A DNA stretch of 64,000 nt. Origin: Catenisphaera adipataccumulans (GTDB lineage Bacteria > Bacillota_I > Bacilli_A > Erysipelotrichales > Erysipelotrichaceae). Below, piece by piece: positions 27,125 to 61,806 of the stretch. Both the position numbers and the translations under genes were made by a program. Location of the stretch: the NCBI RefSeq assembly GCF_014202755.1, contig NZ_JACHHK010000002.1, positions 186,001 to 250,000 on the forward strand, written 5' to 3'. How positions within the stretch are numbered: the first letter of the stretch is position 1; each line of letters opens with the position of its first letter. The notes under the pieces were generated by a model. It was not told where the DNA came from. It did no database searches and worked only from the letters and a program-made list of their open reading frames with translations.

Positions 27125-27589
27125 TCAATCTGGATTCTTCGGATGAAGGCTTATCTGATCCACGAAAGCTTTTTCCAAAGCTTCCTTTCGTTCTTTCACG
27201 TTCTTGATCTTATCCGCTTTCCGGATATCTTCCTCATATTTCTGATATCGCTGGAACCATGAGTGCATCAGCATCAGCGAATTGAAACGGATGGCAACAC
27301 AGTCATTGCCATCATCATCCTTCGTCTCGAAGAGTGCGCCGCCGAAATTCCGGTACATCTGAAAAAGCGAATGCATTGCGGAGATTCCGTTGACTTCTGA
27401 ATTTTTCAGCACTTCAACATTAACACCCAGAGCGTCAGCAAGTGCCTGCAGCGATGAGGGTTTCGGATTCCGCCTGCCGGATTCATAGGCACGTATGTAA
27501 GACTCGCTGACACCGATTTCGTCACCGAGCTGCTTTAAAGTCATTCCCCGCGCTTTGCGAAGACGCCTGATATTTTCGCCAACAGTCAT
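27125..27589 (-). CDS. XRE-family helix-turn-helix regulator of the island
   Basis: A 154-residue protein with an N-terminal Cro/CI helix-turn-helix (IRRLRKARGMTLKQLGDEIG, VSESYIRAYESGRRNPKPSS, LQALADALGV). It has a C-terminal helical region ending in charged helices (YEEDIRKADKIKNVKERKEA). ATG 27589 has GGAGGT upstream; the longer frame is unlikely. It lies at the left edge of the guaA island, directly inside the attachment site, and points towards guaA. The position and type suggest it controlled excision or replication genes of the element, now broken. Confidence 0.82.
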   Translation of the reverse strand: MTVGENIRRLRKARGMTLKQLGDEIGVSESYIRAYESGRRNPKPSSLQALADALGVNVEVLKNSEVNGISAMHSLFQMYRNFGGALFETKDDDGNDCVAIRFNSLMLMHSWFQRYQKYEEDIRKADKIKNVKERKEALEKAFVDQISLHPKNPD

Positions 27590-27654
27590 GATGTACCTCC
27601 TTCGCCTGCCTTTCATTGGCAGTAATGACATGAACAGCATGAAATGATTTCTAA

Positions 27655-27879
27655 AAAGAGCATACCACGCTGGTACAGCTGGGATTCAGTCCGCTGGAAA
27701 TTGCCAATCGTCTGAGACATGGAAGGGTTACGACAACGATCGAAACCTATTGTCATCCTTCCATGGATGCACAGGAGCGGATTGCGTACCGTCTCAGTGC
27801 CCTTGAAAAAGATGGAGAGAGCAGGGATACGAAAAGCGGTTCGAAGGATACTGATGAGAAAGATTCTGGAGAGGAGTAA
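27655..27879 (+). pseudogene. Tyrosine-recombinase integrase, C-terminal stub
   Basis: An open frame with no start codon at its head and a stop codon just before it. It encodes HTTLVQLGFSPLEIANRL, then RHGRVTTTIETYCH, matching the end of phage-type integrases (usual form LGFSPLxIAxRLGHxxVxTTLNTYSH). The catalytic Tyr position (ETY) is retained, but the LGH triplet is LRH and everything upstream (core-binding domain, catalytic Arg) is missing. It is the only integrase trace in the island, 5 bp before the MobC-like frame. Confidence 0.8.
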
Positions 27880-27884
27880 AAGAC

Positions 27885-28197
27885 ATGGCATGTGAGAGAA
27901 AGGCGAGATTCCGTCATAACACGATTGCGTTCTGGCTGAGCGATGAGGAGAATAAAGCTGTAGAGGCGAGGATTATTTTATCCGGTCTTCCGAAAGGGGG
28001 AATATTACCGACAGAGTATTCTCGGTCAGCAGATTCAGATTAATGGAGGTCGTAATCAATCAGCAAAGCTTGCCGCAGAATTGGAGAGTCTGTACCAGCG
28101 CGCATCGGAGCACAAAGATGCAGCGGCAATGGCTGAGCTGATACAGGTTCTTTCAGAACTTCTTGCGGTTTGGAAGGCAGGGGAGGACAACGAATGA
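27885..28197 (+). pseudogene. MobC/ribbon-helix-helix-like accessory protein, frameshifted
   Basis: ATG 27885 opens a frame (RFRHNTIAFWLSDEENKAVE, then LSGLPKGG) that stops at 28043. The next frame continues the same protein (EYYRQSILGQQIQINGG, then a helical tail ending WKAGEDNE) to the stop at 28197. One extra G in the GGGGG run near 28000 explains the break. The SDEE then SGL then EYYRQ layout is that of small MobC-like or RHH proteins on mobile elements. Its stop overlaps the ATG of the following primase gene. Confidence 0.65.
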
Positions 28198-30038
28198 ACA
28201 TTGGAAAAGAAATGGCCGCTTCCGGATCGGCTGTTGGCGCAGCCGGGAAGCGGTCACCTGTAAATAACATTTACAAAAGCATCATAGCAGACCGATCCCG
28301 CAGCTTCAACGGATATCCATCCGTACTGTCAGGAAAAACGGAGGAAGGAGCTGCCATGAATAAAAGGTATTTTCAAGCCTTAATGCATCGGGAACCAGCT
28401 GAAGGCGAGCAGAAATATATTTTCTTTGTCGACAGCACTGATCTTGCTATGAATATCATCGCTGCAGGATATCAGGCGGTCGTACTTCAAGAAGGGATTG
28501 AGGCATATTTCTCACCGGAGGAGCTGACTTCCTATATGGACAGCATTCAATTCCACGGTCTGTCTCTCACATCCTACCGGTATGTTCCTGCCTGTTCTTC
28601 CAAGAGGATTAATGATCTTCTTGAAGATTACTTCCGTGGAAATTATTTGCAGTGGTGTGAGGGCTGGAAGCTTTTCAAAGATAAGGAATACCTGGCAAAT
28701 ACAGGAGCAGAGGAAGAGATAAAAGGCCTGCTCAGCCAATTCATTGAGCGGCATGAAAGAAAGCCGAAGCCGCAGACCAATCTGGATGCATACCATGTGC
28801 TTTCAAAAGACGGCGAGCCTGTCGGCGTTCTGGACATTGAGATCGTAGATGACATCCTGCATACGGTTCCGTCTTTTGTCATCGGCGCAACTCCATTTCT
28901 TTATGAGAATGGCGTCTATCGGGAAGATATCGGCTGTGTGCGTCTGAAATCAATCATTCAGAAGTATCTTTATCGCAGGTTTATTAAGAGCCCGCCCCTG
29001 AAGCGGATCTGCGACCTTCTGATCAGTCAGAGCAGCGTGCAGAAACATTTTTCAGATCTTTACAATTACCCGCTGGAATGGGTGAATTTCCAGAACGGCT
29101 TTACGATCCAATCGAACAGAAATTAATTCCTCATGATCCGAAATATCTATCCATCAATCAGATCCCACATGAGTTTCATCCTGAAAAGAAAGAAGAGACC
29201 ATGCTGGGCGGTGCGGTGACAAAACATTATCTTGCAGATTCGCTTCCGAATCCGGTGGAGCAGCAGATGCTGTGGGAGTACCTCGGTTACTGCATGACAG
29301 CTGATACAAAGATGCAGAAGTTTCTCATGCTGATCGGCGAAGGCGGGACGGGTAAGTCAGTTGTCATTCACCTGTTTCAGAAAGTGATCGGAATGAAGAA
29401 CTGCTCCTGCATCTCTCTGCAGGATCTGAACAGACGATTCTATGCAACTGGACTTTTCGGAAAACTTCTCAATGCCTGCGGTGACATTCCGTGTAAAGCA
29501 CTAGACAGCATCGATGTGCTGAAGAAAGCAGTAGGCGAAGACAGTCTGATCTTTGAAAAGAAATGTCAGGATGCACTGCAGTTTACCAGTCATGCCAAGC
29601 TCCTGTTTTCATCGAATGGAATGCCTGACAACGTTGAAGAAAAAGAAACTGGATCGGGAGATTGATTTTACAATCGTGATGGCGATGGACGCGCTTCATG
29701 AACTCTACGAAAGAGGAGCTTTGATCGAGAGTGAGAACAGTCGAAGATGCGTGGAAGAAGCGAGAAAATCTGCAGACAGCGTGATGGCCTTTATCAGTGA
29801 AAGGCTGATGGAAAAGAGAGGGTGCTGGCTGAATCGGAGCAGAGCCTACGAGGCTTATGAAGAGTATTGCAAAGACAACGGAAGGCAGCCGCTCGGTAAA
29901 GCTAAATTTATTCCGGAGATGAAACGAAAAGGATATAAAGCGGTCAAGAATCAGGGAATTTTCAAATATAAAGACACGGCTCTCTGTGAGGAAGAATTTC
30001 ATCCGATTGCGGAAGATGCTGATGTTCCGTTCCAGTAA
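28194..30038 (+). pseudogene. P4/D5-family phage-type primase-helicase, broken
   Basis: Three frames together encode one replication protein. The first (to 29126) has a Toprim-like YIFFVDSTDLAMNIIAAGYQ segment and a D5_N-like middle. The second (about 29100-29665) holds the helicase Walker A LIGEGGTGKSVVIHLF. The third (to 30038) holds the C-terminal MAMDALHELYERGAL and the DNA-binding end. A one-base loss near 29100 and a deletion near 29640, joining NVEEKE directly to KLDREIDF, break it. Such proteins start replication of integrative elements. It is probably non-functional. Confidence 0.8.
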
Positions 30039-30068
30039 TTTGACAAACGCACATAGCAGAAATGAGAA

Positions 30069-30378
30069 GGGGCACTAGGGGCATGAATCCGAAAAATCAT
30101 GAAAGGAAATTCGTAGTTAATAGGACAAAACAGCGCGTTTGAAGAGGGTTAGTTTGGAAATATTGCAAAGCTCTCGTGAGTTAAAAAATGATGCCCCTTA
30201 TGCCCCCAACAATCATTAAAGAAATTTTATTTGCGATAGGGGCATCTGGGGCATGAAAAATGAAGTTGCTGAATTGTTAAAAGGCCAGAGGATTAAAAAC
30301 ACAATAGTTTTAAGCAGGAGTGCAATCGGATCCGATCGTACTGAATCAAATTATAAAAAGCAATGCCCCTCATACCCC
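30069..30378. repeat. Origin-like cluster of four GGGGCAT-pair elements
   Basis: Four 16-bp elements, each two GGGGCAT-type heptamers 2 bp apart, start at 30069 (+), 30191 (-), 30239 (+) and 30363 (-). Orientation alternates and spacing is nearly symmetrical (122, 48, 124 bp). The middle two flank an AT-rich stretch. The position just behind the primase-helicase is where such elements keep their replication origin. No convincing gene lies between 30039 and 30463. Confidence 0.6.
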
Positions 30379-30463
30379 ATCAGAAAAAATTGGAGAGGCG
30401 TATCAGACGTAAGTTTTCTTAAGAAAAAATTGGACACAGTCACGATAGGAAAATTGAAAAGTA

Positions 30464-30575
30464 AAGCCAGAATGACATTGTCGCCATATTTTTTCAGTTC
30501 TTCAGGCAGATGCTCTAAGGCATGTTCTCCGAAATAAAGTTTTGTCGGGGCGCAGTAAGAAAAATCTCCAAGCAT
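30464..30575 (-). pseudogene. Iron-containing alcohol dehydrogenase, 5' fragment
   Basis: The minus strand encodes MLGDFSYCAPTKLYFGEHAL and continues to GDNVILA, the first 37 codons of the dehydrogenase encoded intact at 59024-60193, then stops matching. Over 112 bp the two copies differ at one base. It would be the last gene of the island redox operon. The break joins it to the origin-like region of the replication module, so a deletion or recombination event removed the rest. Confidence 0.85.
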
Positions 30576-30603: not shown

Positions 30604-31374
30604 TTATAAAAATGCACCGTTGCAGACCTGAATGACTTGACCTTTTACATGACGGCCCATCTTGCTCGCGAGATAGAGGCAGGCATAGGCCTGATCGATG
30701 GGGTCACATTCAGGGCCTGGAAAATACACGTAATGTCCGCTGTACTGCAGCATTTTGGCGCCTCCCGGCTGCTTACCCGCCTTGTTTGCCAGATGCGCGG
30801 GCGTGATTGTGGAACCCGGAGCAACGGCGTTGCATCGGATGTTTGTATCGATCAGACGCATGGCAACATTTTTGGTCAGTGTGTTGAGTGCGCCTTTTGT
30901 CGAAGTATAAGTTGCACCGCAGAAGGGTCTTGTTGCGTTGACGGAAGAAATATTGATGATACAGCCGTCATTTTTTGGAAGAAAAATCTTCAGAGCTTCA
31001 CGGATGTAGCGCATCGGGCCGCCTAGGTTCGTATTCATGACCATCATCATCCAGTCGTCATCTGTCTCATCAATCATTTTCTGTTCCCCGATGCCGGCAT
31101 TATTGATAAGAATGTCGACATCACCAAATTCTTTTATTGTGGTTTCAAAAACCTTCTTGGTATCTTCTGTTGAACATACGTCAGCCACAACACCGATGGC
31201 CTGCTGTCCTTTGCTGCGAATCCCTTTGACGACTTCGTTCAGTTTATCTTCATGTCTCGCCGTTAAAACTACGGATGCGCCTTCGTCGGCGAAGAGTTCT
31301 GCCATGGTCTGTCCCATTCCATAGCTTGCCCCTGTAATAATCGCTATTTTATCTTTCAGCATTTGCTGTTCCAT
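30604..31374 (-). CDS. Short-chain dehydrogenase/reductase
   Basis: A 256-residue classical SDR. It has the cofactor motif TGASYGMG near residue 14, NNAG, catalytic Ser in INISSVNA, and Tyr/Lys in YTSTKGALN. The alanine-rich NADP-type start AIITGASYG is followed by TARHED, suggesting NADPH preference. Substrate unknown. It lies between the flavodoxin-fusion lipoprotein and the dehydrogenase fragment, in one minus-strand operon starting at 35088. Confidence 0.88.
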   Translation of the reverse strand: MEQQMLKDKIAIITGASYGMGQTMAELFADEGASVVLTARHEDKLNEVVKGIRSKGQQAIGVVADVCSTEDTKKVFETTIKEFGDVDILINNAGIGEQKMIDETDDDWMMMVMNTNLGGPMRYIREALKIFLPKNDGCIINISSVNATRPFCGATYTSTKGALNTLTKNVAMRLIDTNIRCNAVAPGSTITPAHLANKAGKQPGGAKMLQYSGHYVYFPGPECDPIDQAYACLYLASKMGRHVKGQVIQVCNGAFL

Positions 31375-31407: not shown

Positions 31408-32547
31408 TCATTCAGCGGAGAAGGTGATCTGTACGCTGCCATTTCCCACAGCATCCGCTAAGCCGTCTGGATCAGTGATATGGCCGATTTTTGTATAGCT
31501 GTAGCTGGTGGAAAAACTGTCGTAGAAGAGGACAAGGCAGTCATCATCGTAGAGCATAAGATCGCCCGCCTGAATCGTTCCGACAGACTCCGCGTCAGAG
31601 GGGAGAGAAACATCATAAGCGTACTTTTCGTTGCCGTTTAGTTCCTGCATCTGAAGTGTCAGAGGTAGTTTCTCTCTGAATGCTGCGGCTGTTTCATTAT
31701 CTTCCAGTTCGGCAGTAAAAGTCTGATCGCCGATCTGAATCTGTATTGTCTGTTTTTCTGTCATGTTTTCCTCCTGTGCCGGGGCATATGAAGTCTGCAG
31801 ATCAGCTGCGGCGGAACGCACTTCCGCTTCCGCATCAGCGACACTGCTCTGGGATACCGTGATGCCCTCAACGATATCCGCATCCGGCTCTGCTTTCTGT
31901 ATTTTTTCAATCGTATCCCCGAAACCGCTTCCACCGCTGGTTGTAAAGCAGCAGACCGTTTTGCCGGACAAGTCATAATCTTCAAGAAATGACACCATCG
32001 GGGCCGGCAGGGTGTAATGCCAGATCGGATAAACGAGATAGATCATATCGTAGGATGAAAGATCAATCGGATTGATCAGAAGCGGATGCACGCCGTCCGA
32101 ATCCTGACCTTCGCCAACATCAACGGTCTGATCATAGTCCACCGGATAGGTATACATCGTCTGAATCGGATAGAGATCACCGCCGGTCTCATCGGCGATC
32201 CATTCCGCCATCTGCTGGGCATTTCCCTCCGCTGTGCCGTCTTCCTGTACCTGAAGGCTGGCCGAAGATACTGCATCAACACCGTCGAGGGAGGTATTGG
32301 ATGACCGTGAGAAATAGGCAACCAGAATATTTCCGGCGCTGCCGGAAGTAATGCCGGCATCTTCTGCTTTGACTGGCGTATAGTCAGCGTAACGGGTATA
32401 GTTTTCTATTTCATCAGTAGAAGCCGGACTGCTGGAATCGTCAGATGTGGAAGCGTTTCTGCTGATGGTATTATTTGATTGACTGCCGCATCCGGAAAGA
32501 AGAACGGCTGTCAGGATTCCTGTAACGAATACCTTTTTTAGCTTCAT
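31408..32547 (-). CDS. Lipoprotein with fused flavodoxin and cyclophilin-like domains
   Basis: A 379-residue protein. It has an N-terminal lipobox (AVLLSGC), a Ser/Thr-rich linker, then a flavodoxin-like domain at about 75-240 (NILVAYFSRSSNT, YDMIYLVYPIWHYTLPAP, CCFTTSGGSGFG). A cyclophilin-like beta domain of the Cyclophil_like2 type follows at about 260-379 (IQIGDQTFTAELEDNETAAA, AGDLMLYDDDCLVLFYDS). A flavin protein held outside the membrane is unusual. It is likely part of an extracytoplasmic or membrane-attached redox pathway with the neighbouring SDR and hydrolases. Confidence 0.82.
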   Translation of the reverse strand: MKLKKVFVTGILTAVLLSGCGSQSNNTISRNASTSDDSSSPASTDEIENYTRYADYTPVKAEDAGITSGSAGNILVAYFSRSSNTSLDGVDAVSSASLQVQEDGTAEGNAQQMAEWIADETGGDLYPIQTMYTYPVDYDQTVDVGEGQDSDGVHPLLINPIDLSSYDMIYLVYPIWHYTLPAPMVSFLEDYDLSGKTVCCFTTSGGSGFGDTIEKIQKAEPDADIVEGITVSQSSVADAEAEVRSAAADLQTSYAPAQEENMTEKQTIQIQIGDQTFTAELEDNETAAAFREKLPLTLQMQELNGNEKYAYDVSLPSDAESVGTIQAGDLMLYDDDCLVLFYDSFSTSYSYTKIGHITDPDGLADAVGNGSVQITFSAE

Positions 32548-32564: not shown

Positions 32565-33155
32565 TTATTCTGCTAACTCTACGGTGACATCATAGCTTCC
32601 ATTCAGCGCATCGATCTCAGCAAGAGGAGACGTGATGACGCCGATGTTGACCTGATAGCCAAACTGTTCCGATTCATCTTCATCTTTGAAAAGAATCGTA
32701 AAGTATGGGGCATCGATGGCATAATCGATATCACCATTAAGCCATCCGTAATGTACTTCGTCTTCGTTGTAGGGGAGTTCCTCCGTCACACCGCAGAAGT
32801 CATGGGAATACCGGCTCATATGAACCGTGTAGGGAAGTTTGGCGATCAATGCTTTTGCGGTGTCACTGTCATTCAGTACACCGGTAATCACGGCATCATC
32901 ACCGAAACGGATATTGATCTTCGTGCCGTTCTCCGGCGGAATTCTTGTTGCAATTGTTTTATCTTCCGTCTGCATCTGCGCTCCATCAGATGCGACACGT
33001 TTTGTTGTTTCTGTCATGTTTTCATCCTCCTCATTTGCAATAGCGGTCTGTTCAGAAGCAGCCGTTTCGGTTGTACTTGTGGCTGTAGTACTTCCGCAGG
33101 CGGTCAGTATCAGAGAAATCAGAATGGCTGCTGCAACTGCTTTTTTTACCCTCAT
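32565..33155 (-). CDS. Cyclophilin-like lipoprotein
   Basis: A 196-residue protein with a lipobox (LISLILTACGS), a linker, and a cyclophilin-like domain (NGTKINIRFGDDAVITGVLN, LPYTVHMSRYSHDFCGV, HYGWLNGDIDYAIDAPYFTI). The domain closely resembles the protein at 60251-60703, which lacks the lipoprotein signal. An inner MTETTK start marks where the two forms begin to align. The family has no established enzyme activity. It lies 17 bp upstream of the flavodoxin fusion in the operon. Confidence 0.8.
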   Translation of the reverse strand: MRVKKAVAAAILISLILTACGSTTATSTTETAASEQTAIANEEDENMTETTKRVASDGAQMQTEDKTIATRIPPENGTKINIRFGDDAVITGVLNDSDTAKALIAKLPYTVHMSRYSHDFCGVTEELPYNEDEVHYGWLNGDIDYAIDAPYFTILFKDEDESEQFGYQVNIGVITSPLAEIDALNGSYDVTVELAE

Positions 33156-33172: not shown

Positions 33173-34108
33173 TCAGGTTTCAGCAGGCATGTGCTGAGCC
33201 AGAAAGTCTTTGATGTACTGCAGAGCATCTTCAAACGGCTGACCATAGAATCCGTGTCCGCCGTCGCTGATCGTATGAAATTCAGCATTGCTGTAGACTT
33301 CGGCTGCCCGTTCTCCATAGGAAATATCCACAAGGGTATCGCGATCCCCGTGCAGGATCAGTACCGGCCCCTGGTAAGTCGAAATGTGTTCATAGGGATC
33401 ATAGCCCCAGACATCTTCGGCATAGATCTTTCCCAGAGTGATCCATCCGCCCCACTGTCCGAAGGTATCAGGCACTTCATCCAGTGAAGAAAACCGTTCA
33501 TGTACATCATCGTAGATGACGAAGGCCGGATACATGAGGATCAGGGCGCTGACGGCATCGGTGTTTTCAGCAGCTGCCACGGCACTGACGAAGCCGCCCT
33601 GGCTGCCGCCCAGCAGAGCAATGTGATCAGGATCGGCAAAATCCCAGTTACGGGCGGCATCCAGAACACTTTCCAGATCTCTGACCTCTGTCCTAACGGA
33701 CATTTCCGTTGAACTTCCATCACTCTGATTCTCGGTCCCGTTGGCACTGCCGCCGCAGAAATCGAATACATAGACGGCGTAGCCGCAGGCGGCCAGATGT
33801 TCCGCGTAGGGAATGCCGGTTGTGTGATTTTCTCCAAGTTCATGCGCGAAGATGACAAGCGGATGCTGTGTCCGGCCGTCATCGGGAATATAAGCGATGC
33901 CGTAGATCTGTCTGCCGTCATGACTCACCCAGGTTTCCCGGGTGCTGTAGGAATAAGATTCATTTAAGGTTCTGTCTGCTGGTGAGGGTGAGGCAGATTC
34001 AGCTGCCGTTGAAGCTGCCGTGGTTTCTTCCGTTTCCGGACTGCCGCAGCCCCACATGCGGGCGGTCGTCAATATTGTACAGATTAAGAGGGCAATTCCT
34101 TTCTTCAC
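33173..34108 (-). CDS. Alpha/beta-hydrolase lipoprotein
   Basis: A 311-residue hydrolase. It has an N-terminal signal ending near MWGCGS (a poor but plausible lipobox) and a Ser/Ala/Pro-rich linker. Nucleophile elbow GGSQGG, acid in LHGDRDTLV and His in SDGGHGFYG form a complete Ser-Asp-His triad. Substrate unknown; the fold is that of the dienelactone-hydrolase/acyl-esterase group. The stop of the hydrolase upstream overlaps its start by 4 bp. Confidence 0.82.
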   Translation of the reverse strand: MKKGIALLICTILTTARMWGCGSPETEETTAASTAAESASPSPADRTLNESYSYSTRETWVSHDGRQIYGIAYIPDDGRTQHPLVIFAHELGENHTTGIPYAEHLAACGYAVYVFDFCGGSANGTENQSDGSSTEMSVRTEVRDLESVLDAARNWDFADPDHIALLGGSQGGFVSAVAAAENTDAVSALILMYPAFVIYDDVHERFSSLDEVPDTFGQWGGWITLGKIYAEDVWGYDPYEHISTYQGPVLILHGDRDTLVDISYGERAAEVYSNAEFHTISDGGHGFYGQPFEDALQYIKDFLAQHMPAET

Positions 34109-35088
34109 TTTGTCATTTCACCGAAGAAAGACGCAAACTTTTCGAACGGAATCTTTGTCTTATCATCATAGAGATCACAGTGGCCGGCACCTTCAACCCA
34201 GTAAATCTCCGTGCATTCCCGCGGCAGTTTTGCATACGCTTCTTCACTGTAGGCACGGGAGTGTGCTTCAGTACCGCAGACGATCAGAGCTTTTCTGCCC
34301 TTGAGAAGATCCGCGTTGATATAAGGATCAAAGTTGAACAGAGCAGCCAGGCTGTTCATATTCATAGCACCGGTTGAATACTGGTGACGTCCTCTGTTCT
34401 TGTCGAGATAGTAGTCAAAGAATTCTTTGGAGACAGGATCAAGATTGTCATATATTTCCGGTGTGACCTTGCGGGGGAATTCCATCATGAATTTCTCTTC
34501 ACCGCCGGCATAGGCGTTCCATCTCTGTTCGCCGGTTTCCTTCAGCATGTCAATCCGCTGATCCGTATCCCGCATGCCGAACATCGTGCGGTAGTTTTCG
34601 CCGATGTTGTACATCGTCGAGGTGGCAACGGCCTTGATGCGGGTATCCGTCAGGGCTGCCGCAATGGCGAAGCTGCCGGAAGCACAGATACCGATGAGGC
34701 CGATCGCATCACGGTTGACAAATGTTCTCGTGCCGAGATAGTCAACGGCTGCCTGGATGTCTTCTACATGACCTTCCGGTGTGGAGATATGTCTTGCCGT
34801 GCCGCCGCTGGCACCGTTGTAGGAAAGATCGATGGCGAAGCCGATGAAGCCGTGCTTTGCCATTTCCTGCGCATACAGTCCGCCGGACTGTTCCTTTACG
34901 CCGCCGTGCGGATGGCTGACGATAATCGCCGGATACTTCCTGGTATCATCAAATCCTTCCGGGAAGAAAATGTCCGCGGCCAGCTGAATGCCATAGCGGT
35001 TATGGAAATATACGGTCCGGTTTTCGATCTCCGGATAAACTTCATAGGTTTTGCCTTCATTGAATTCAAATCTTGTTACGTCTGTCAT
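34105..35088 (-). CDS. Alpha/beta hydrolase (DLH/YcjY-like)
   Basis: A 327-residue cytoplasmic hydrolase starting MTDVTRFEFNEGKTYEVY. It has VYFHNRYGIQLAADIFFP, an oxyanion segment SHPHGGVKEQSGG, nucleophile elbow GICASGSF and a C-terminal GAGHCDLYD with the catalytic His. It is a clear paralogue of the protein at 57253-58224. It is the first gene of the minus-strand operon, separated by a conserved control region from the broken LysR gene at 35214. Confidence 0.85.
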   Translation of the reverse strand: MTDVTRFEFNEGKTYEVYPEIENRTVYFHNRYGIQLAADIFFPEGFDDTRKYPAIIVSHPHGGVKEQSGGLYAQEMAKHGFIGFAIDLSYNGASGGTARHISTPEGHVEDIQAAVDYLGTRTFVNRDAIGLIGICASGSFAIAAALTDTRIKAVATSTMYNIGENYRTMFGMRDTDQRIDMLKETGEQRWNAYAGGEEKFMMEFPRKVTPEIYDNLDPVSKEFFDYYLDKNRGRHQYSTGAMNMNSLAALFNFDPYINADLLKGRKALIVCGTEAHSRAYSEEAYAKLPRECTEIYWVEGAGHCDLYDDKTKIPFEKFASFFGEMTK

Positions 35089-35100
35089 TTGCTGTTCCTC

Positions 35101-35200
35101 CTTTGTTCTGATTTCAGTATATTAGCCTTGAAAAAAAATTGAAAATACTTTGTTTTAATGAATTTGCATTGATAAAATCTATGATATAACAGAAGAAAGA
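35101..35200. promoter_or_regulatory. LysR-type divergent control region (island copy)
   Basis: About 98 bp that align with 60772-60868 between the paralogous LysR and its divergent operon, including CTTTGTTC, TTTGCAT and TATGATATAA blocks. Conservation across both loci suggests operator and promoter function. Confidence 0.6.
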
Positions 35201-35213
35201 AGGAGGTTTGAAA

Positions 35214-36151
35214 ATGGAACTGCGCGTACTGGAATATTTCCTTGCCGCAGCAAGAGAACAGAATATCACCGCAGCCGCAGAATCACTGCATCTGACCCAG
35301 CCGATTCTTTCTATTCAGCTGAAAGAGCTGGAGAAGAACTGGGGAAAAAGCTGCTGATCCGCGGCACAAAAGGATCCCGGAAAGTAACCCTGACGAAAGA
35401 TGGAAAACTGCTGCGTGCCCGTGCTGAAAGATATCCTGAATCTGGTTGAAAAGACTGAAAATGAAATTTCCAGCACAAATGATACCGTGGCAGGCGATGT
35501 GTATATCGGCACCGGTGAGACAGATACGATCCGTGTTTTTCCCGGACAGCCCGGGTCCTGCAGACCCGCTTTCCGGCAATTCATTATCATTTCATGAGTG
35601 GCAATGCGAATTATGTACTGGAACAACTGGATAACGGCTTGGTTGATTTCGGCCTGGTGTTCGGAGAAGCAGATGAAAAGAAATATAATGTTCTCCACAT
35701 TCCGAAACGGGAAAGATGGGGTGTACTGCTCAGAAGAGATGATCCGCTGGCTCAGAAAGAAAAGATCACGCCGGAGGATCTCCGCGATCAGCCTCTGATC
35801 GTATCAGCCCAGGAAGATGCCCGGAAACAGCTGGCGGAATAGATGCATGTCCGGCCATCGGGGCTTCATGTCGCAGCGACATATAACCTGATTCTCAATG
35901 CAGCCATTCTGACGGATGAAAAATTCGGGTATACGATTGGTTATGACAAGCTTCTGGATACGGTCCTTGATCAAGGAAATTCTTCTCTCTGCTTTCGGCC
36001 ACTTGATCCAGTCATGGAAGCAGAAGCTGTCATTATCTGGAAAAAATACCAGATTTTTTCCAAAGCTGCAGATTTGTTTCTCCAGCAGCTGCAGAAAGCA
36101 CTTTATATTGACCAAGAAGGTGAGACAAAATCAAAAGAAAAACGTGAATGA
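35214..36151 (+). pseudogene. LysR-family regulator, broken
   Basis: Starts with a good ribosome site (AAGGAGG) and MELRVLEYFLAAAREQNITA, a LysR winged helix almost the same as the intact gene at 60886. It has a one-base loss near 35330 (GAGAAGAACTGG), compensating and further indels near 35430 and 35545, and a TGG to TAG nonsense change at about 35840 (KQLAE then stop). The C-terminal effector domain still matches in other frames (TYNLILNAAIL). The regulator of the island redox operon is therefore dead. Confidence 0.88.
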
Positions 36152-41199: not shown

Positions 41200-41934
41200 A
41201 TGATGAGATTTCGTAGAACGGTAATTTTTATTTCATTCCTGCTTTTCCCAATAACGATTTGGTATTTCTCGCCCTATTTGATCATTCAGGCCATGTTTCA
41301 GCATATCTTGAATGGAAGTTTCTTTGTCTTTATGGCAATGTTGGTGATTTCGATATTCGCGGGACGTGCCTGGTGCGGATATTTCTGTCCGGCCGGCGGT
41401 CTGCAGGAATGCTGTATGAGAATCAATGATAAACCGGCAAAGCAAGGTAAGAGAAACATCATTAAATATGTCCTATGGTGCATTTGGATGATCGGGATCA
41501 TTGTTACGTATATTTTAGGAAAAAACGATGTGACCATTGATTTCTTTTATATGACCGATCACGGTATTTCTGTTACAGAAATTTATAACTACATTATCTA
41601 CTATGGAGTTTTGTTTCTTTTTGTCGTTCCGGCCCTTGTTCATGGAAAGCGGGCTGCCTGCCACTATTTCTGCTGGATGGCACCTTTTATGGTGATCGGG
41701 AGCACGATCGGAAGACTTTTGCACATCCCGCAGCTTCACATAGAAGCAAGACAGGAGGACTGCATTTCATGCAAGAGGTGCAATAAGTCCTGCCCGATGG
41801 GACTGGATGTCGAGCAGCTGGTCAGACAGAACAAAAACAGTTCCTGTACGGAATGTATCCAATGCGGAGAATGCATTCATGCATGTCCAAAACACGTACT
41901 GCACTATAAAATGATGTGGAGGAACAAAAAATGA
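41200..41934 (+). CDS. NapH-like membrane 4Fe-4S ferredoxin protein
   Basis: A 244-residue protein with about four hydrophobic segments. Two membrane-face Cys motifs (CGYFCPAGGLQECC and CHYFCW) are followed by two C-terminal [4Fe-4S] clusters (CISCKRCNKSCP and CTECIQCGECIHACP). The layout matches NapH/RnfB-like quinol-side electron carriers. The linked flavodoxin gene suggests electron flow between quinones and flavodoxin. GAGGTGG precedes the start (41200 or 41203). Its stop overlaps the flavodoxin start. Confidence 0.85.
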   Translation: MMRFRRTVIFISFLLFPITIWYFSPYLIIQAMFQHILNGSFFVFMAMLVISIFAGRAWCGYFCPAGGLQECCMRINDKPAKQGKRNIIKYVLWCIWMIGIIVTYILGKNDVTIDFFYMTDHGISVTEIYNYIIYYGVLFLFVVPALVHGKRAACHYFCWMAPFMVIGSTIGRLLHIPQLHIEARQEDCISCKRCNKSCPMGLDVEQLVRQNKNSSCTECIQCGECIHACPKHVLHYKMMWRNKK

Positions 41935-42416
41935 AAAGAGCAGTGATATATTATTCCTTATCCGGTAATACCGAAAAATATGCGAAAGATCTTGCACACG
42001 AAATTGGTGCGGATCTCATCAAGATCAAGATGAAAAATCCTTTGCCCAATGTCAAATGGAAGCAATTCCTGATCGGCGGAAGACAAGCAATTTTTCATGA
42101 GAAACCGGAAATCGAACACCTCTCCCAAAATATGGATCAGTATGACGAGATCATTATTGGGACACCGATATGGGCAGGTCAGGCAGCATCTCCGATCAAT
42201 ACCGTTTTGGAACGGAAAGAAATTGCCGAAAAAGCAACAGCCGTATTTACATTGAGCGGCAGCGGCAATAATACCAAGTGCGCGGCAAGACTTCGGAAGG
42301 AATTACCAAACCTAAAAACGGTCAGCTCTTTCGTAGATATGAACAATGAAACGGCGAAAGAAAACCCTGAGAAATTGAGAGAACTGGTGAAGGAGATTCA
42401 AAATGGGGAAAAGTAG
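41931..42416 (+). CDS. Flavodoxin-family protein
   Basis: A 161-residue flavodoxin with the FMN phosphate loop YSLSGNTEKYAK, the YDEIIIGTPIWAGQAASP strand-turn and FTLSGSGNNT. TGGAGG lies 9 bases before ATG 41931. It is coupled to the NapH-like protein in front and overlaps the PadR gene behind by 14 bp. Probably an electron carrier for the membrane ferredoxin protein. Confidence 0.87.
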   Translation: MKRAVIYYSLSGNTEKYAKDLAHEIGADLIKIKMKNPLPNVKWKQFLIGGRQAIFHEKPEIEHLSQNMDQYDEIIIGTPIWAGQAASPINTVLERKEIAEKATAVFTLSGSGNNTKCAARLRKELPNLKTVSSFVDMNNETAKENPEKLRELVKEIQNGEK

Positions 42417-56633: not shown

Positions 56634-56675
56634 AAAAGACTGTTGATTTTCTGCTCAACAGTCTTTTAGTTTTTT
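56634..56675. terminator. Bidirectional terminator
   Basis: A 13-bp perfect stem AAAAGACTGTTGA / TCAACAGTCTTTT followed by AGTTTTTT, between the TetR gene and the end of the minus-strand redox operon. Confidence 0.88.
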
Positions 56676-57195
56676 ATTCGGCCAGTGCGATCGTTACGGT
56701 GACATCACCGCTGCCGAGAATTTCTTTCAGTTCCGATGCGGAAACATCTTTGATCTTTCCCAGCCGGGTGAAGTTCCATGAATTTGGTGCATAGTATATT
56801 ACGAACTGATTGCCTTGATAAAGGATAAGATCACCTGCTTTTGTCGTGATTTGTTTATTGTTGGTCGGCAGGCTGGTTCCCAGGTCACCGACTTTTTCCA
56901 TGTTCGCATAATCACTCATATTTATCGTAAGAGGACCTTCAGCCAGCAAGTTTTTCAGTGCTTCCGCAGAAGAATTGTCCGCAAGCTCAGCGGTCAGGGT
57001 CGTGTTGTTTATTGTTAAGGTAATCATTGTTTCGTCTCCTTCTTGTGATGTATTCGTATTCGTTTCTGTCTGTGTATTTTCTTTTTGTTTCTGTTGGTCG
57101 GCTGATGAAGTACCATTTTGTCCGCTGCAGGCAGACAAAGAAAAGGAAACGATCATGGCGATCAGCAGGATCAGCCATTTTTTATCTTGTTTCAT
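56674..57195 (-). CDS. Cyclophilin-like lipoprotein
   Basis: A 173-residue protein with a lipobox (VSFSLSACSG), a Gln/Thr-rich linker and a cyclophilin-like domain (ITLTINNTTLTAELADNSSA, EALKNLL, AGDLILYQGNQFVIYYAPNS). The domain aligns with the C-terminal half of the flavodoxin fusion at 31408. It is the last gene of the minus-strand operon beginning at 60703. Probably a surface or membrane-tethered partner of the redox enzymes; no activity is known. Confidence 0.82.
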   Translation of the reverse strand: MKQDKKWLILLIAMIVSFSLSACSGQNGTSSADQQKQKENTQTETNTNTSQEGDETMITLTINNTTLTAELADNSSAEALKNLLAEGPLTINMSDYANMEKVGDLGTSLPTNNKQITTKAGDLILYQGNQFVIYYAPNSWNFTRLGKIKDVSASELKEILGSGDVTVTIALAE

Positions 57196-57252
57196 AAAAC
57201 CCTCCTTACGGATGATTCAATACTTTTGATCAGACAGCATGCTTTGCATATC

Positions 57253-58224
57253 TTATTTTAGATAGGTATTCATGAAGCTTTCGATCTTATCGAATGGAAT
57301 GACATCCATGTTGTCGTACAGATCGGTGTGGACCGCACCTGGGATGATCATCAGCTCTTTGTTGTCGCCTTTCAGTTTCTTGAATGCATCTTTTGTAAAA
57401 TAGCAGCTATGCGCTTTTTCACCATGAATCATGAGCACGGCGTTGCGGATCTCCGAAGCATAGCAGTGGATCGGCATATTTAAGAAAGACAGGGAAGAAG
57501 TGACATTCCAGCCGCCGTTTGAATTGACCGATCGATCATGATAGGCTCTGTGCTTATAATAAGCGACATAGTCTTTGACAAAGAACGGTGCATCCTCGGG
57601 CGCTTCTTCCGGAAGACCTCCGGCCAGCGCGTAAGTGCCGCTGCGGTAGTCTGCCGTACGTTGTGCATTGAGCTGCTCTCTTAATTGATAGCGGTCCTCT
57701 TCGCTCATGGCATCAAAGTAGCCGTTTGCGGTCATACGGCTCATATCATACATGGTAGAAGTTACGGTCGCTTTGATCCGGGTATCCATAGCAGCGACAT
57801 TCAGGGCCATGCCGCCCCAGCCGCAGATGCCGATAATACCAATTTTTTCCGGATCGACATTCTCCTGCACGGAGAGAAAATCCACCGCTGCACTGAAATC
57901 TTCGGTGTTGATATCCGGCGAAGCGACGGCTCTTGGCTGACCGCCGCTTTCTCCGGTATAAGAAGGATCAAAGGCAATGGTCAGAAATCCTCGTTCTGCC
58001 ATTTCCTGTGCATAGAGCCCGGATGCTTGTTCTTTACAAGATCCGAACGGTCCGGCTACCGCGATCGCAGCCAATTTACCGGAAGCATTCTTCGGTGTGT
58101 ACATATCTGCCGCCAGCGTAATGCCGTAGCGATTGTGGAAAGTAATTTTGCGATGATCGACTTTATCGCTTTTCGGAAAGGTCTTATCCCATTCTTGTGT
58201 TAATGTTAACTTTTGTTCCTGCAT
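57253..58224 (-). CDS. Alpha/beta hydrolase (DLH/YcjY-like)
   Basis: A 323-residue paralogue of the island hydrolase at 34105, sharing ITFHNRYGITLAADMYTP, KEQASGLYAQEMAERGF and the elbow GICGWGGMA. In the elbow the nucleophile position reads Trp, not Ser or Cys, unlike ICAS in the island copy, so the nucleophile may be the Cys two residues earlier or the enzyme may have changed. The C-terminal GAVHTDLYD holds the His. It lies between the NADPH-FMN reductase and the lipoprotein. Confidence 0.8.
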   Translation of the reverse strand: MQEQKLTLTQEWDKTFPKSDKVDHRKITFHNRYGITLAADMYTPKNASGKLAAIAVAGPFGSCKEQASGLYAQEMAERGFLTIAFDPSYTGESGGQPRAVASPDINTEDFSAAVDFLSVQENVDPEKIGIIGICGWGGMALNVAAMDTRIKATVTSTMYDMSRMTANGYFDAMSEEDRYQLREQLNAQRTADYRSGTYALAGGLPEEAPEDAPFFVKDYVAYYKHRAYHDRSVNSNGGWNVTSSLSFLNMPIHCYASEIRNAVLMIHGEKAHSCYFTKDAFKKLKGDNKELMIIPGAVHTDLYDNMDVIPFDKIESFMNTYLK

Positions 58225-58255
58225 TTGTTTGTCCTCCTGGCTCTATCTTTATGTT

Positions 58256-58780
58256 TTACAGGGAAGCACCCAGCATGCGTGCTTCTTCGCGTTTTGCTTC
58301 TGATTTATTTTCAGATCCGTGGGCAGTAATGATCCCGGCATCTTCAAGTCCCATGTATTCAATGAAATTTTTATGATAGGAATAGAATGCTGCTTCATAA
58401 ACCTGATCTGCTCCGGAACTCAGCAGCATCGCGATCTTACGCAGTTTCAGCTGTCCTGGTGCGCCGATGGCATAGAAGCGGTCGATCGCACATTTCAGCT
58501 GACCGCTGAAACCATGATAGTAGATCGGCAAAGCTAGGACGAGCGCGTCTGCCTGCTGAAGCAGCGGATAGATTTTCTGCATATCATCGTTCTGTACACA
58601 TTTGCCGCGGCCTTTGGTATGGCAGTATTCGCAGCCTAGGCATCCATGAAGATCCAGCCGGGCCACATCAACTTCTGTGACTTCATGGCCCTTGGAAACC
58701 GCACCTTCTTTCAAGGCGTCAACCAAGGCTTTGGTATTTCCGTTCGGGCGCGGACTGCCGTTTAGGATCAGTACTTTCAT
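58256..58780 (-). CDS. NADPH-dependent FMN reductase / flavodoxin-like oxidoreductase
   Basis: A 174-residue protein with the FMN loop LILNGSPRPNGNTKALVDAL and ADALVLALPIYYHGFSGQLK. A CEYCHTKGRGKC segment, typical of the iron-sulfur flavoprotein-like NAD(P)H oxidoreductases of anaerobes, lies between them. It reduces flavins or electrophilic substrates. It overlaps the small helical protein by 4 bp, within the LysR-divergent redox operon. Confidence 0.85.
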   Translation of the reverse strand: MKVLILNGSPRPNGNTKALVDALKEGAVSKGHEVTEVDVARLDLHGCLGCEYCHTKGRGKCVQNDDMQKIYPLLQQADALVLALPIYYHGFSGQLKCAIDRFYAIGAPGQLKLRKIAMLLSSGADQVYEAAFYSYHKNFIEYMGLEDAGIITAHGSENKSEAKREEARMLGASL

Positions 58781-59010
58781 AGGGTTCTCCTTTCCTGTTT
58801 TTCCAGTTCATAGGACAAGTAATCCAGACATTCCAGATGTCGGTTTTCTTGATGAAGTTTTTCAAGAATCTTTGTGCGTTTCATTGCCAGATCACGCAGC
58901 TGGGATTCAAGGTCACCGCTGTTTACATAGGTCATGAACCGCTCTGCTGTGGCCTTGGTATAGCCGGCATCCAGCAGATTCTGATAGATTTCCTCCGGTG
59001 TTCGATGCAT
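58777..59010 (-). CDS. Small helical protein, unknown
   Basis: About 77 residues from ATG 59010, which has GAGGAAT upstream: MHRTPEEIYQNLLDAGYTKA, ERFMTYVNSGD, and HRHLECLDYLSYELEK at the end. It is all-helical and lacks a recognised domain. Similar small proteins often accompany flavodoxin-type reductases in gut Firmicutes. It is coupled with the NADPH-FMN reductase and lies 13 bp after the dehydrogenase. Confidence 0.65.
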   Translation of the reverse strand: MHRTPEEIYQNLLDAGYTKATAERFMTYVNSGDLESQLRDLAMKRTKILEKLHQENRHLECLDYLSYELEKQERRTL

Positions 59011-59023
59011 GTTTTGATTCCTC

Positions 59024-60193
59024 TCAGAGACTTTCTTTGAAGATCTCTGCGATCTCTTTTTCATCCAGGACCTTATAACCGCCGTTCAGAACAATGGTTC
59101 CTTTCACTAGATCAGGAATCATGCTTTCATCTGCGCCAAGATCTGTGATGTTCATAACGAGGCCCAGTTCCTGCATCCATTGCTGCATGGCAGAAAGTCC
59201 GGCTTCCGCAATCTCGCGGTCGGATTTGCCTTCCGGGTCGACATTCCATACGGTTTTGGCAAACCGCACGAATTTCTTCAGACCATACGGCATAATATGT
59301 TTGTAATAAGGGATGGAAACAGCTGCCAGTGTCATGCCGTGCGTCGCATTCGTTACAGCACCGACTGCCTGACCAAGCATGTGGACCATCCAGTCTGTGG
59401 TCTTGCCCTTTCCGGTCAAGGTATTGAGGGCCCAGGTTGCCGACCACATCAAGTTGGAGCGGGCTTCATAATTCTGCGGATCTTGATTGGCGATGCGGCT
59501 GGAATGAACGACCGAGCGCATCAGTCCTTCAGCGATATAATCGCTGGTATTGTCGTCTTCGCCGGAGAAATATTGTTCACAGATATGATTGAAAATATCA
59601 TAGCTGCCCGAAACCATCTGATAATGCGGGAGGGTCATCGTATAGCGCGGATTCAGGATCGAGAAGCGCGGCATGATCTTTTCATCTTGGAAAACATGGC
59701 CGATCTTGAGCTTTTGATCCGGATTTGTGATCACAGCACCAGAATTCATTTCCGAGCCGGTTCCGACCATGGTCAGAACCGTACCGACCGGAAGTGTTTC
59801 GCATTCTGGTTCTTCAAATTTCAAGTAGTACTTCTCCCAAGGATCACCATCATAATGAACAGAGACGGAAAGCGCCTTGGAATAGTCGATGACGGAACCG
59901 CCGCCGACCGCAAGGATGAAATCTGCCTTTGCCTCTCGGGCAATCTGGATTCCTTCTTTCAGTTTTTCAACGGTCGGATTCGGCATGATACCGGAAATTT
60001 CCGTTACGGTCTTTCCTGTATCTTTGAGAACTTTCATGACATCATCGTAGATGCCGTTTCTTTTGATGGAACCGCCGCCGTAAGCCAGAATGACATTGTC
60101 GCCATATTTTTTCAGTTCTTCAGGCAGATGCTCTAAGGCATGTTCTCCGAAATAAAGTTTTGTCGGGGTGCAGTAAGAAAAATCTCCAAGCAT
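59024..60193 (-). CDS. Iron-containing alcohol dehydrogenase (BDH type)
   Basis: A 389-residue group III alcohol dehydrogenase. It has the cofactor motif VGGGSVIDYSKA, then metal ligands in GSYDIFNHICEQYF (Asp and His) and in VHMLG and NATHGMTLA (two His). It resembles NADPH-dependent butanol dehydrogenases (YqhD/BdhA) that reduce aldehydes. Its first 37 codons are duplicated almost perfectly at 30464-30575 in the guaA island. It lies second in the operon, 57 bp after the cyclophilin-like gene. Confidence 0.92.
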   Translation of the reverse strand: MLGDFSYCTPTKLYFGEHALEHLPEELKKYGDNVILAYGGGSIKRNGIYDDVMKVLKDTGKTVTEISGIMPNPTVEKLKEGIQIAREAKADFILAVGGGSVIDYSKALSVSVHYDGDPWEKYYLKFEEPECETLPVGTVLTMVGTGSEMNSGAVITNPDQKLKIGHVFQDEKIMPRFSILNPRYTMTLPHYQMVSGSYDIFNHICEQYFSGEDDNTSDYIAEGLMRSVVHSSRIANQDPQNYEARSNLMWSATWALNTLTGKGKTTDWMVHMLGQAVGAVTNATHGMTLAAVSIPYYKHIMPYGLKKFVRFAKTVWNVDPEGKSDREIAEAGLSAMQQWMQELGLVMNITDLGADESMIPDLVKGTIVLNGGYKVLDEKEIAEIFKESL

Positions 60194-60250
60194 TTTTTAT
60201 CCTCCTTTGTTCTTGAAAGCAATTTCGATTTGTATCATTTTATCAATCGG

Positions 60251-60703
60251 TTATCTGGCAAGTTCAATTGTCACATCATAACTGCCGTCCAGCGCATTGA
60301 TATCTGCAATTGGCGAAGTGATGACACCGATATTGACTTGATATCCAAATTGATCCGACATTTCCTCACCCATAAAGAGAATCGTGAAGTACGGTGCATC
60401 AATGGAATAATCGATATCTCCGTTCAGCCATCCATAATGTACTTCGTCTTCGTTGTAGGGGAGCTTGTCCATCACGCCGCAGAAATCATGTGAATACCGG
60501 CTCACGTGAACCGTGTACGGAAGCTTTTTGATCAATGATTTAGCAGTTTCACTGTCGTTCAGAACACCGCTGATCACAGCATCTTCACCAAAACGAATAT
60601 TGATCTTTGTCCCATTTTCCGGCGGGATCCTTGTGGCGATCGTTTTGTCATCGGTCTGGATCTGTGCATCCTCCGCTGCCAGACGTTTGGAATTTTTCTT
60701 CAT
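60251..60703 (-). CDS. Cyclophilin-like protein (cytoplasmic form)
   Basis: About 150 residues from ATG 60703, preceded by AAAGGAGG. The sequence RLAAEDAQIQTDDKTIATRI, then INIRFGEDAVISGVLN and HYGWLNGDIDYSIDAPYFTI, matches the domain of the island lipoprotein at 32565, but there is no lipobox. First gene of the six-gene minus-strand operon diverging from LysR. The family is called cyclophilin-like by fold; peptidyl-prolyl isomerase activity is not expected. Confidence 0.8.
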   Translation of the reverse strand: MKKNSKRLAAEDAQIQTDDKTIATRIPPENGTKINIRFGEDAVISGVLNDSETAKSLIKKLPYTVHVSRYSHDFCGVMDKLPYNEDEVHYGWLNGDIDYSIDAPYFTILFMGEEMSDQFGYQVNIGVITSPIADINALDGSYDVTIELAR

Positions 60704-60771
60704 TTTATTACCTCCTTTATAGGGTTGATTTCTAACCGTTCGGTTTTCGAAATCATGTATTTGTTTATCTC

Positions 60772-60868
60772 CTTTGTTCATCTTTAGTATAGAAGCTGTA
60801 ATATAAAATTGGAAATATTTTGTCTAAATGCATTTGCATAGATAATAATTATGATATAATCAAAAGAA
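60772..60868. promoter_or_regulatory. LysR-type divergent control region
   Basis: Contains the dyad ATGCA-TT-TGCAT (60828-60839) and an extended -10 TGATATAAT (60852-60860) for the LysR gene. It aligns over its length with the island region 35101-35200, which supports a shared operator. Confidence 0.65.
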
Positions 60869-60885
60869 AAAGGTGGGACATGACT

Positions 60886-61806
60886 ATGGAACTGCGTGTA
60901 TTGGAATACTTTCTTGCGGTTGCACGAGAACAGAACATCACGGCTGCTGCGGAATCTCTGCACCTGACTCAGCCGACGCTTTCTGTACAGCTAAAAGCGC
61001 TGGAAAATGAACTGGGAAAACAGTTGCTGGTGCGTGGTACGAAGGGGCCCCGAAAGGTGACTTTGACCGAAGAAGGGAAACTGCTGCGTGCTCGTGCGGA
61101 AGAAATCTTAAGCCTGGTAGAAAAGACCGAAGGTGAAATATCTCAGTCGGATGATACGGCGGCAGGTGATGTTTATATTGGTGCCGGAGAGACGGATACA
61201 ATTCGTGTTTTTGCCCGGGCCGCAAAGAAACTGCAGAAAAGCTGCCCGGATATCCATTATCACTTTATGAGCGGCAATGCGGCCTTTGTGATGGAGCAGC
61301 TGGATAAAGGCCTGATCGATTTTGGTCTGATATTTGTGGATGTGAATCCGAAAAAATATGAAATTCTGCGTATTCCCATGCAAGAACGTTGGGGCGTGCT
61401 GATGCGTCGTGATGATCCGCTGGCACAGAAGCAGAACATTACCCCGGACGATCTGACAGGACTGCCTTTGATCATCTCTTCCCAGGGCAATGCCAGAAAG
61501 CAATTGGCAGGCTGGATGCATCAACCAGAGTCGCGTCTGAACATCAAGGCAACATATAATCTGATTTTGAATGCGGCGATTCTAAGCGATGAGGGCTTTG
61601 GCTATACCATTGGTTTTGACAAGCTTCTGAATACCGCACTGGATCCGGGAAATTCGTCTCTGTGCTTTAAACCGCTTTTTCCTGTCGTAGAAGCGGAAGC
61701 AATCATTGTTTGGAAGAAATACCAGATTTTTTCAAGAGCGGCAGGCCGTTTTCTGGAGCAGATCCGACAGGAACTCTATCCATCGGAAAAATCGACTTCG
61801 GACTGA
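60886..61806 (+). CDS. LysR-family transcriptional regulator
   Basis: A 306-residue LysR protein. Its winged helix (MELRVLEYFLAVAREQNITA, AAESLHLTQPTLSVQLKALE) is followed by a full effector domain (AGDVYIGAGETDTIRVFARA, IDFGLIFVDVNPKKY). AGGTGG suggests ATG 60886; ATG 60880 is possible. It diverges from the redox operon, its likely target. The island holds a broken copy at 35214. Confidence 0.92.
   Translation: MELRVLEYFLAVAREQNITAAAESLHLTQPTLSVQLKALENELGKQLLVRGTKGPRKVTLTEEGKLLRARAEEILSLVEKTEGEISQSDDTAAGDVYIGAGETDTIRVFARAAKKLQKSCPDIHYHFMSGNAAFVMEQLDKGLIDFGLIFVDVNPKKYEILRIPMQERWGVLMRRDDPLAQKQNITPDDLTGLPLIISSQGNARKQLAGWMHQPESRLNIKATYNLILNAAILSDEGFGYTIGFDKLLNTALDPGNSSLCFKPLFPVVEAEAIIVWKKYQIFSRAAGRFLEQIRQELYPSEKSTSD

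Follow-up and report, generated by a model that had tools for sequence, protein, structure and literature searches.

A lipoprotein that joins a flavodoxin with a predicted covalent FMN site to a cyclophilin-like domain in Catenisphaera adipataccumulans

A gene of Catenisphaera adipataccumulans encodes a lipoprotein of 379 residues, in which a signal sequence with lipobox and a linker are followed by a Flavodoxin_4 and a Cyclophil_like2 domain (31408-32547, minus strand; ORF, Pfam and AlphaFold2 model). All positions refer to the window, i.e., the whole stretch of 64,000 nucleotides that was analysed. We consider it probable that the protein carries electrons on the outside of the cytoplasmic membrane, to which it is tethered, and that it has covalently bound FMN and a cyclophilin-like binding module, while its gene may yield a second product. 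The core of this finding, a flavinylated extracytoplasmic flavodoxin, is already known; the signal for an internal start at the cyclophilin-like domain is new. The retention of FMN by a flavodoxin outside the cell becomes a testable case of covalent flavin in a gut lineage, and the signal for an internal start is statistically strong, replicated and present in a widespread lipoprotein family.

Architecture, location and genomic setting

The initial annotation had described one chain with lipobox, linker, flavodoxin and cyclophilin-like domain, and this architecture is confirmed by an unbroken minus-strand reading frame of 379 codons in the ORF analysis of the window, by Pfam and by an AlphaFold2 model. 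The N-terminus begins with a short, basic leader; hydrophobic residues and the lipobox LLSG-C20 follow, and the whole reads as a Sec-type lipoprotein signal spanning residues 1-20 (MKLKKVFVTGILTAVLLSG-C20; 32488-32547, minus strand), which the regular expression and hydropathy rule classed as “lipo”. The flavodoxin fold covers residues of about 71-256 (31780-32337, minus strand) and includes a match to PF12682 (Flavodoxin_4) at residues 106-235 (E 6e-21, 75 bits versus a cut-off of 24). After a linker of about 10 residues, the cyclophilin-like domain occupies residues of about 263-379 (31411-31761, minus strand) and matches PF18050 (Cyclophil_like2) at residues 270-377 (E 7e-33, 113.5 bits versus a cut-off of 22.7). 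Both assignments agree with the model and with fold matches. The model, which was computed from an alignment of 69 proteins from the window and the loci, comprises two well-folded domains (mean pLDDT 88.3, pTM 0.68), with pLDDT values above 90 across most of both domains and low values only near the N-terminus. The fusion is no artefact, since a copy with 96% identity is present in genome G486, and 32 non-redundant ORFs of the fetched loci contain both domains.

The leader points to export of the fusion protein. A position on the outer membrane face, as proposed initially, is ruled out by taxonomy: the host belongs to the Erysipelotrichales (Bacillota; the order of Thomasclavelia) and is of the Gram-positive type, so that the cytoplasmic membrane is the expected site of the lipoprotein, facing outwards. 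In a first step, judged from the sequence, the Sec/lipobox leader would export the protein, and C20 would be anchored in the outer leaflet of this membrane. Some flavodoxin-cyclophilin fusions of other genomes harbour extra N-terminal regions (L091, L118, L105, L070, L086, L075 and L104), which by eye look dockerin-like, SLH-like or copper-amine-oxidase-N-like, and these N-termini look like alternative routes to the cell surface.

The fusion gene is part of a co-directional run on the minus strand, which starts with an alpha/beta hydrolase gene (DLH/S15-like; 34105-35088; Pfam) and continues with a second alpha/beta hydrolase, a probable lipoprotein by its N-terminus (GTG start, ...RMWGC; 33173-34108; Pfam). 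The next gene codes for a separate cyclophilin-like (PF18050) lipoprotein (32565-33155; Pfam) and is separated from the fusion gene by 17 bases. Downstream follow a co-directional short-chain dehydrogenase (30604-31374, minus strand; Pfam) and the remnant of an iron-containing alcohol dehydrogenase (30465-30575, minus strand), of which the first 37 residues are left; they share 97% identity with a further copy, located at 59024-60193. On the plus strand lies a LysR regulator pseudogene with frame breaks and a stop (35142-36106), which is 53% identical to the intact LysR at 60820-61806. The LysR pseudogene and the dehydrogenase stub show that the local cluster is decaying. At 27125-30537, where the alcohol dehydrogenase of this cluster is cut after 37 residues, a fragment of a DUF5906 (primase/helicase-associated) gene and broken ORFs are found, which probably represent a decayed mobile element.

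A paralogous cluster at 56674-61806 comprises a cyclophilin-like lipoprotein, an alpha/beta hydrolase, an FMN_red flavoprotein, a small ORF, an iron-containing alcohol dehydrogenase, a second cyclophilin-like gene (79% identical to the gene at 32565-33155) and a divergent LysR. Together with the neighbours of the fusion gene (two alpha/beta hydrolases, the short-chain dehydrogenase and the broken dehydrogenase and LysR genes), this cluster suggests that reactive small molecules, carbonyls or others, are processed. The fusion gene of G486 (locus L253) is 96% identical in DNA to the window gene, and the ORF is intact in both genomes; the copies differ by 15 nonsynonymous and 9 synonymous codons, a nonsynonymous-rich divergence that suggests relaxed selection. 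G486 is placed in another genus despite this identity, so that either the gene was transferred recently or the genome or contig has been assigned to the wrong place.

The flavin site and its electron partners

The flavodoxin domain carries an insertion of residues of about 81-107 (32227-32307, minus strand) in place of the canonical FMN-phosphate loop, located between beta1 (residues 74-78) and alpha1 (residues 109-121) according to alignments and to the secondary structure of the AlphaFold2 model. The stretch between beta1 and alpha1 reads SRSSNTSLDGVDAVSSASLQVQEDGTAEGN-A, as opposed to a short, SxTGNT-like loop in relatives. In the alignments the canonical short loop before alpha1 is absent from the window protein (SRSSNTSLDGVDAVSSASLQVQEDGTAEGNA, with GNA for GNT); this loop is not kept by all members of Flavodoxin_4. 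The initial annotation had named loss of the FMN-phosphate loop residues as a refutation: the canonical phosphate loop indeed turned out to be lost, yet flavin binding is not refuted by this loss, because the insertion carries a known type of covalent FMN site. In extracytosolic Flavodoxin_4 proteins, a motif-bearing beta1-alpha1 insertion is flavinylated by ApbE, and mutation of the Ser/Thr of the motif to Ala abolishes flavinylation, as laid out in the main text of Huang, Meheust, Barquera and Light (2024, mSystems, PMC11334425).

The corresponding ApbE-type motif of the window protein is D91-A-V-S-S-A-S97 (32257-32277, minus strand), with Ser97 (32257-32259, minus strand) as the predicted FMN acceptor; both assignments draw on the precedent of PMC11334425 and on motif counts in the family. 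The pattern D..[STAV].[AP]S was found in 93 of 103 insertions (at least 19 residues long, taken from flavodoxin ORFs of the fetched loci, one of them, L105_4900, misparsed) but in 2.6% of shuffled insertions, and its last residue is always Ser. The G position of the motif is most commonly occupied by S (62/93), followed by G (19/93), and the SSAS within DAVSSAS of the window protein is a variant of the textbook [ST]GA[ST]. Of 224 non-redundant flavodoxin ORFs 209 were parsed and 15 were unparsable; with export assigned by a lipobox/hydropathy rule, a similar motif occurs in 87 of 169 parsed exported flavodoxins versus 4 of 40 classed as leaderless, and these 4 were judged from their N-termini to be exported as well, the start having been picked wrongly or the signal missed. 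A clade of motif flavodoxins (L010, L037, L055, L057, L061, L067 and L074) bears Pro instead of Ala (SSPS, TSPS, ASPS). We infer from the motif and its precedent that FMN is covalently attached to Ser97.

The initial annotation had called FMN loading outside the cell puzzling, and the ApbE motif, together with the precedent of covalent attachment described in the main text of PMC11334425, offers an answer. In a second step, a membrane-anchored ApbE would move FMN from FAD to Ser97 outside the cell, and the bound FMN would occupy the flavodoxin pocket without being able to diffuse off, as suggested by the motif and by the flavinylated relatives. The flavodoxin domain might also bind FMN in its pocket without a bond, as does 3klb, the insertion being merely a loop. 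This reading draws on the fold match to FMN-bound 3klb and 3edo and on the fused proteins themselves, 13 of 31 parsed ones keeping the short canonical loop and lacking the motif, so that the fusion as such needs no covalent FMN. Yet the window protein is devoid of the canonical phosphate loop, and a motif that is kept in 93 of 103 insertions and is unchanged in L040 and G486 makes an ordinary non-covalent flavodoxin unlikely. Similarly, we regard it as improbable that the domain has ceased to bind flavin and is the apo scaffold of a decaying accessory gene: while the broken LysR, the truncated alcohol dehydrogenase and the large nonsynonymous share compared to the G486 copy fit this notion, and H177 replaces the second Trp of a PxWW stretch found in many relatives (by alignment), the ORF is intact in two genomes, the motif is kept, and pLDDT is above 90 in most of both domains.

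The host genome has a single ApbE (G000:C4:110363-111220, E 1.1e-69), which bears an N-terminal hydrophobic anchor (read by eye) and adjoins RnfC-, RnfD- and RnfG-like genes. Its gene resides on another contig than the fusion gene and thus not beside it. Its presence in the host proves little, since 158 of 194 relatives have an ApbE as well. Co-occurrence with ApbE was also rejected as proof: the fetched loci of 36 genomes without ApbE held no true insertion motif (0 of only 7 exported flavodoxins), compared to about 3 of 8 exported flavodoxins in a systematic ApbE-positive sample, a difference that is not significant. The loose pattern used in this comparison also caught SRSS-type strings after alpha1, which were discounted by eye.

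Of the roles considered, electron transfer outside the cytoplasm, as suggested in the initial annotation, is supported best. In a third step, the flavodoxin would take electrons from a membrane donor and pass them on to a small-molecule or protein partner. In many relatives this donor would be a DUF4405-type cytochrome, which often lies close to such flavodoxins and is a heme protein linked to flavinylation in the main text of PMC11334425. Of 52 named loci that contain a motif flavodoxin, 24 have DUF4405, versus 6 of 28 loci without one (Fisher p 0.033); for ApbE the numbers are 7 of 52 versus 1 of 28 (p 0.25, not significant). The lengths of these 80 named loci were not equalised, and their choice is biased, as the scan sorted them by resemblance to an alignment headed by the protein studied here. 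The host genome contains no match to DUF4405 anywhere and one match to FMN_bind, which lies inside the rnf genes; both were accordingly dismissed as electron partners in the host. In this organism, the suggested link to a flavin-based extracellular transfer pathway is conjectural, and Rnf can be guessed to be a candidate donor.

Two further observations concern redox genes. In an island of Thomasclavelia saccharogumia (L125/L064), ApbE, DUF4405 and several exported flavodoxins with differing insertion motifs are assembled; one fusion gene of this island is broken, but it is intact in G156. At 41200-42416 of the window, a gene for a membrane 4Fe-4S protein (Fer4_5, NapH-like) overlaps a gene for a small cytosolic flavodoxin-like protein, possibly an electron-transfer pair.

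Recurrence of the fusion and the internal start at M262

The 32 ORFs with both domains belong, as far as the carriers are named, mostly to Lachnospiraceae, Oscillospiraceae, Ruminococcus and other Clostridia or Bacilli, and of the 31 parsed ones, all but the 13 with a short loop have an insertion. On the flavodoxin tree the fused state takes 15 changes (201 rows) or 11 changes (99 rows). A single origin of the fusion is ruled out by AU tests on the trees of both domains, in which one clade of all fused rows was rejected for the flavodoxin (p-AU 9e-5; 99 of 201 rows kept, the long rows and part of the unfused rows being left out) and for the cyclophilin-like domain (p-AU 5e-6; 64 rows, 6 of 70 long-branched rows being left out). 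The flavodoxin domains of the window protein and of L040 are sisters (support 99.9), whereas a sister relationship of their cyclophilin-like domains is rejected (p-AU 0.0015), in a test for which the flavodoxin tree had supplied the pair and which was run after the first cyclophilin tree had been seen. The discordance of the domain trees thus indicates repeated joining or swapping of the domains.

In a sample chosen without regard to flavodoxins, PF18050 is present in 51 of 295 genomes. Besides its repeated fusion to flavodoxins, the domain is found by itself or together with alpha/beta hydrolases. The 58 regions examined for PF18050 (two of which yielded no such ORF) gave 58 cyclophilin-like ORFs. 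Five of these ORFs are fused to a flavodoxin (one, L141, being truncated), 3 have a flavodoxin within 300 bases on the same strand and 8 within 5 kb, and for 42 none is in view, a majority that counts against the proposed role. A lipobox heads 32, another leader 8, and 18 have none. Within four genes of cyclophilin-like ORFs, and with labels assigned by eye from N-termini, alpha/beta hydrolases occur in 18 loci, flavodoxins in 11, FMN-reductase-like proteins in 10, LysR and MerR regulators in 9 each, and aldo-keto reductases and iron-containing alcohol dehydrogenases in 7 each. PF18050 is also fused to an alpha/beta hydrolase in L072 and to SLH domains in L040. In a fourth step, in keeping with these associations, the C-terminal cyclophilin-like domain may bind the electron partner or a substrate.

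The linker in front of this domain harbours a putative second start. Within the sequence CAGGAGGAAAACATG, which encodes Q-E-E-N-M262, a Shine-Dalgarno-like (SD) AGGAGG (31770-31775, minus strand) lies 5 nucleotides 5' of an in-frame ATG (31762-31764, minus strand) at the start of the cyclophilin-like domain. The predicted product from M262 comprises residues 262-379 and is a leaderless protein of 118 residues. In a first set of 101 cyclophilin-like ORFs with an N-terminal extension, a Met falls between -18 and +4 relative to the domain start in 69, compared to 34% expected, where the expected rates assume uniform use of Met and start codons were chosen mechanically. Against a null, in which the seven upstream codons were redrawn among synonyms, a best SD match of at least 5 bases (SD 5+) occurs in 29 (null 15.6 +/- 2.8) and one of at least 6 bases (SD 6+) in 22 (null 8.9 +/- 2.3), numbers reached in 0 of 400 draws each. 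The other internal Mets of this set show a slight general excess (SD 5+ in 41 of 392 versus their own null of 29.2 +/- 3.6). Flavodoxin lipoproteins served as control: of 132 examined, only 14 carry a Met at the border of the domain, and SD 5+ is seen in 1 (null 1.4).

The signal was replicated by the same rules in 64 loci of previously unused genomes, the 60 ORFs of which include 2 of L253, the locus with the near-identical G486 fusion. A Met is found at the boundary in 49 (47% expected), and 37 of the counted boundary Mets lie at +1 or +3. SD 5+ occurs in 33 (null 13.3 +/- 2.6) and SD 6+ in 18 (null 5.6 +/- 2.0), again with 0 of 400 draws each, and at other internal Mets SD 5+ amounts to 21 of 292 (null 19.9). 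When all data are grouped at 60% identity, 42 of 59 clusters have the Met, and SD 6+ is present in 15 (null 5.1 +/- 1.6; 0 of 300 draws). Ten codons upstream, SD 5+ drops to 5 of 116 overall and to 2 of 42 after clustering. For the 14 flavodoxin fusions with a Met at -3 to +3, SD 6+ is found in 8 (null 3.0; 0 of 400 draws) and SD 4+ in 10 (null 7.5; reached in 34 of 400 draws). The enrichment of internal SD-ATG signals at the border of the cyclophilin-like domain is real across the family.

What the signal does is judged less firmly. The AGGAGG-ATG may be an unused scar, namely the start signal of a cyclophilin-like gene that was captured together with it as leaders or flavodoxins became attached to its 5' end. 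Seventeen cyclophilin-like ORFs without leader indeed begin at or near the domain start, the fusions are recurrent, and no more than about 10 residues link the two domains of the window protein. Nevertheless, the SD excess holds across clusters below 60% identity; at this distance, synonymous sites without a use would be expected to have drifted, provided that not many of the fusions are recent. We give the scar close to an even chance. The persistence of the excess at this divergence favours a start in use, and recurrent recent fusion would weaken the argument. In a fifth step, the AGGAGG-N5-ATG at M262 may also yield a cytosolic cyclophilin-like protein of 118 residues. More generally, the genes of exported PF18050 lipoproteins, including the window fusion, might be dual-product genes, which form an anchored protein outside (bearing covalent FMN in the case of the window fusion) and a leaderless cyclophilin-like protein inside, a reading that we put forward tentatively and at rather less than even chance. 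As tentative is the corollary that a single gene supplies both the inside and the outside of the cell with one and the same domain for binding a ligand or partner.

Translation-pausing elements have been proposed to lie tens of codons after a leader. Such an element, aiding membrane targeting without being a start site, would agree with the SD-like sequence tens of codons after the leader in single lipoproteins, but is very improbable here, since the sequence accompanies an in-frame ATG where the domain begins, is rare ten codons upstream, is situated at codon 262 in the window fusion and has no counterpart in the flavodoxin lipoproteins. A start in use would imply that cytosolic isoforms have gone unannotated throughout a family of “lipoproteins”, and studies of what the cyclophilin-like domain does could then set out from either side of the membrane. 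If the genes do form two products, they perhaps couple the cytosolic handling of reactive small molecules to an extracytoplasmic redox or hydrolase partner.

Comparison with known systems

The literature searched yielded nothing on an internal start in the PF18050 cyclophilin-like family, nothing related on lipoproteins with flavodoxin and cyclophilin-like domains, also not in connection with alcohol dehydrogenase and LysR, and no paper on PF18050 or Cyclophil_like2 by name; older names led to structure papers. Likeness to cyclophilins concerns the fold class only, and Foldseek matches do not exclude other families. Residues 263-379 share the fold of 3kop from Arthrobacter (Z 14.8) and of TM1367 (1zx8; Z 13.2), and 2nnz is a weak sequence match; these proteins are 120-160 residues long and have no flavodoxin domain. 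The cyclophilin-like fold is also adopted by one domain of the Pictet-Spenglerases KslB and McbB (Z 13.5-14.8, KslB 14.8), which are enzymes with another function and 16-20% identical to the domain described here.

The closest solved folds of the flavodoxin domain are the Bacteroides flavoproteins 3klb, 4ici and 4j8p (Z 17.6-18.0, 30-32% identity). Unlike the window protein, these have a short phosphate loop and no cyclophilin-like domain, and 3klb binds FMN without an insertion.

The nearest known system is the ApbE-flavinylated Flavodoxin_4 proteins of PMC11334425, which according to the main text are found mostly in Firmicutes and are exemplified by Anaerocolumna xylanovorans SHO45324.1 and Desulfosporosinus lacus WP_073032509.1. 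Co-localisation with apbE or DUF4405 is frequent in this set, as far as the main text goes, yet not required, and it is absent at the window gene. The fusion adds a recurrent partner domain, as cyclophilin is not mentioned in that main text. In comparison with the proteins presented in that text, the window protein is set apart by the fused PF18050 domain, the motif SSAS and the internal SD-ATG, and it shares with them PF12682, export (predicted from its sequence), the beta1-alpha1 insertion and a flavinylation-like motif ending in Ser/Thr.
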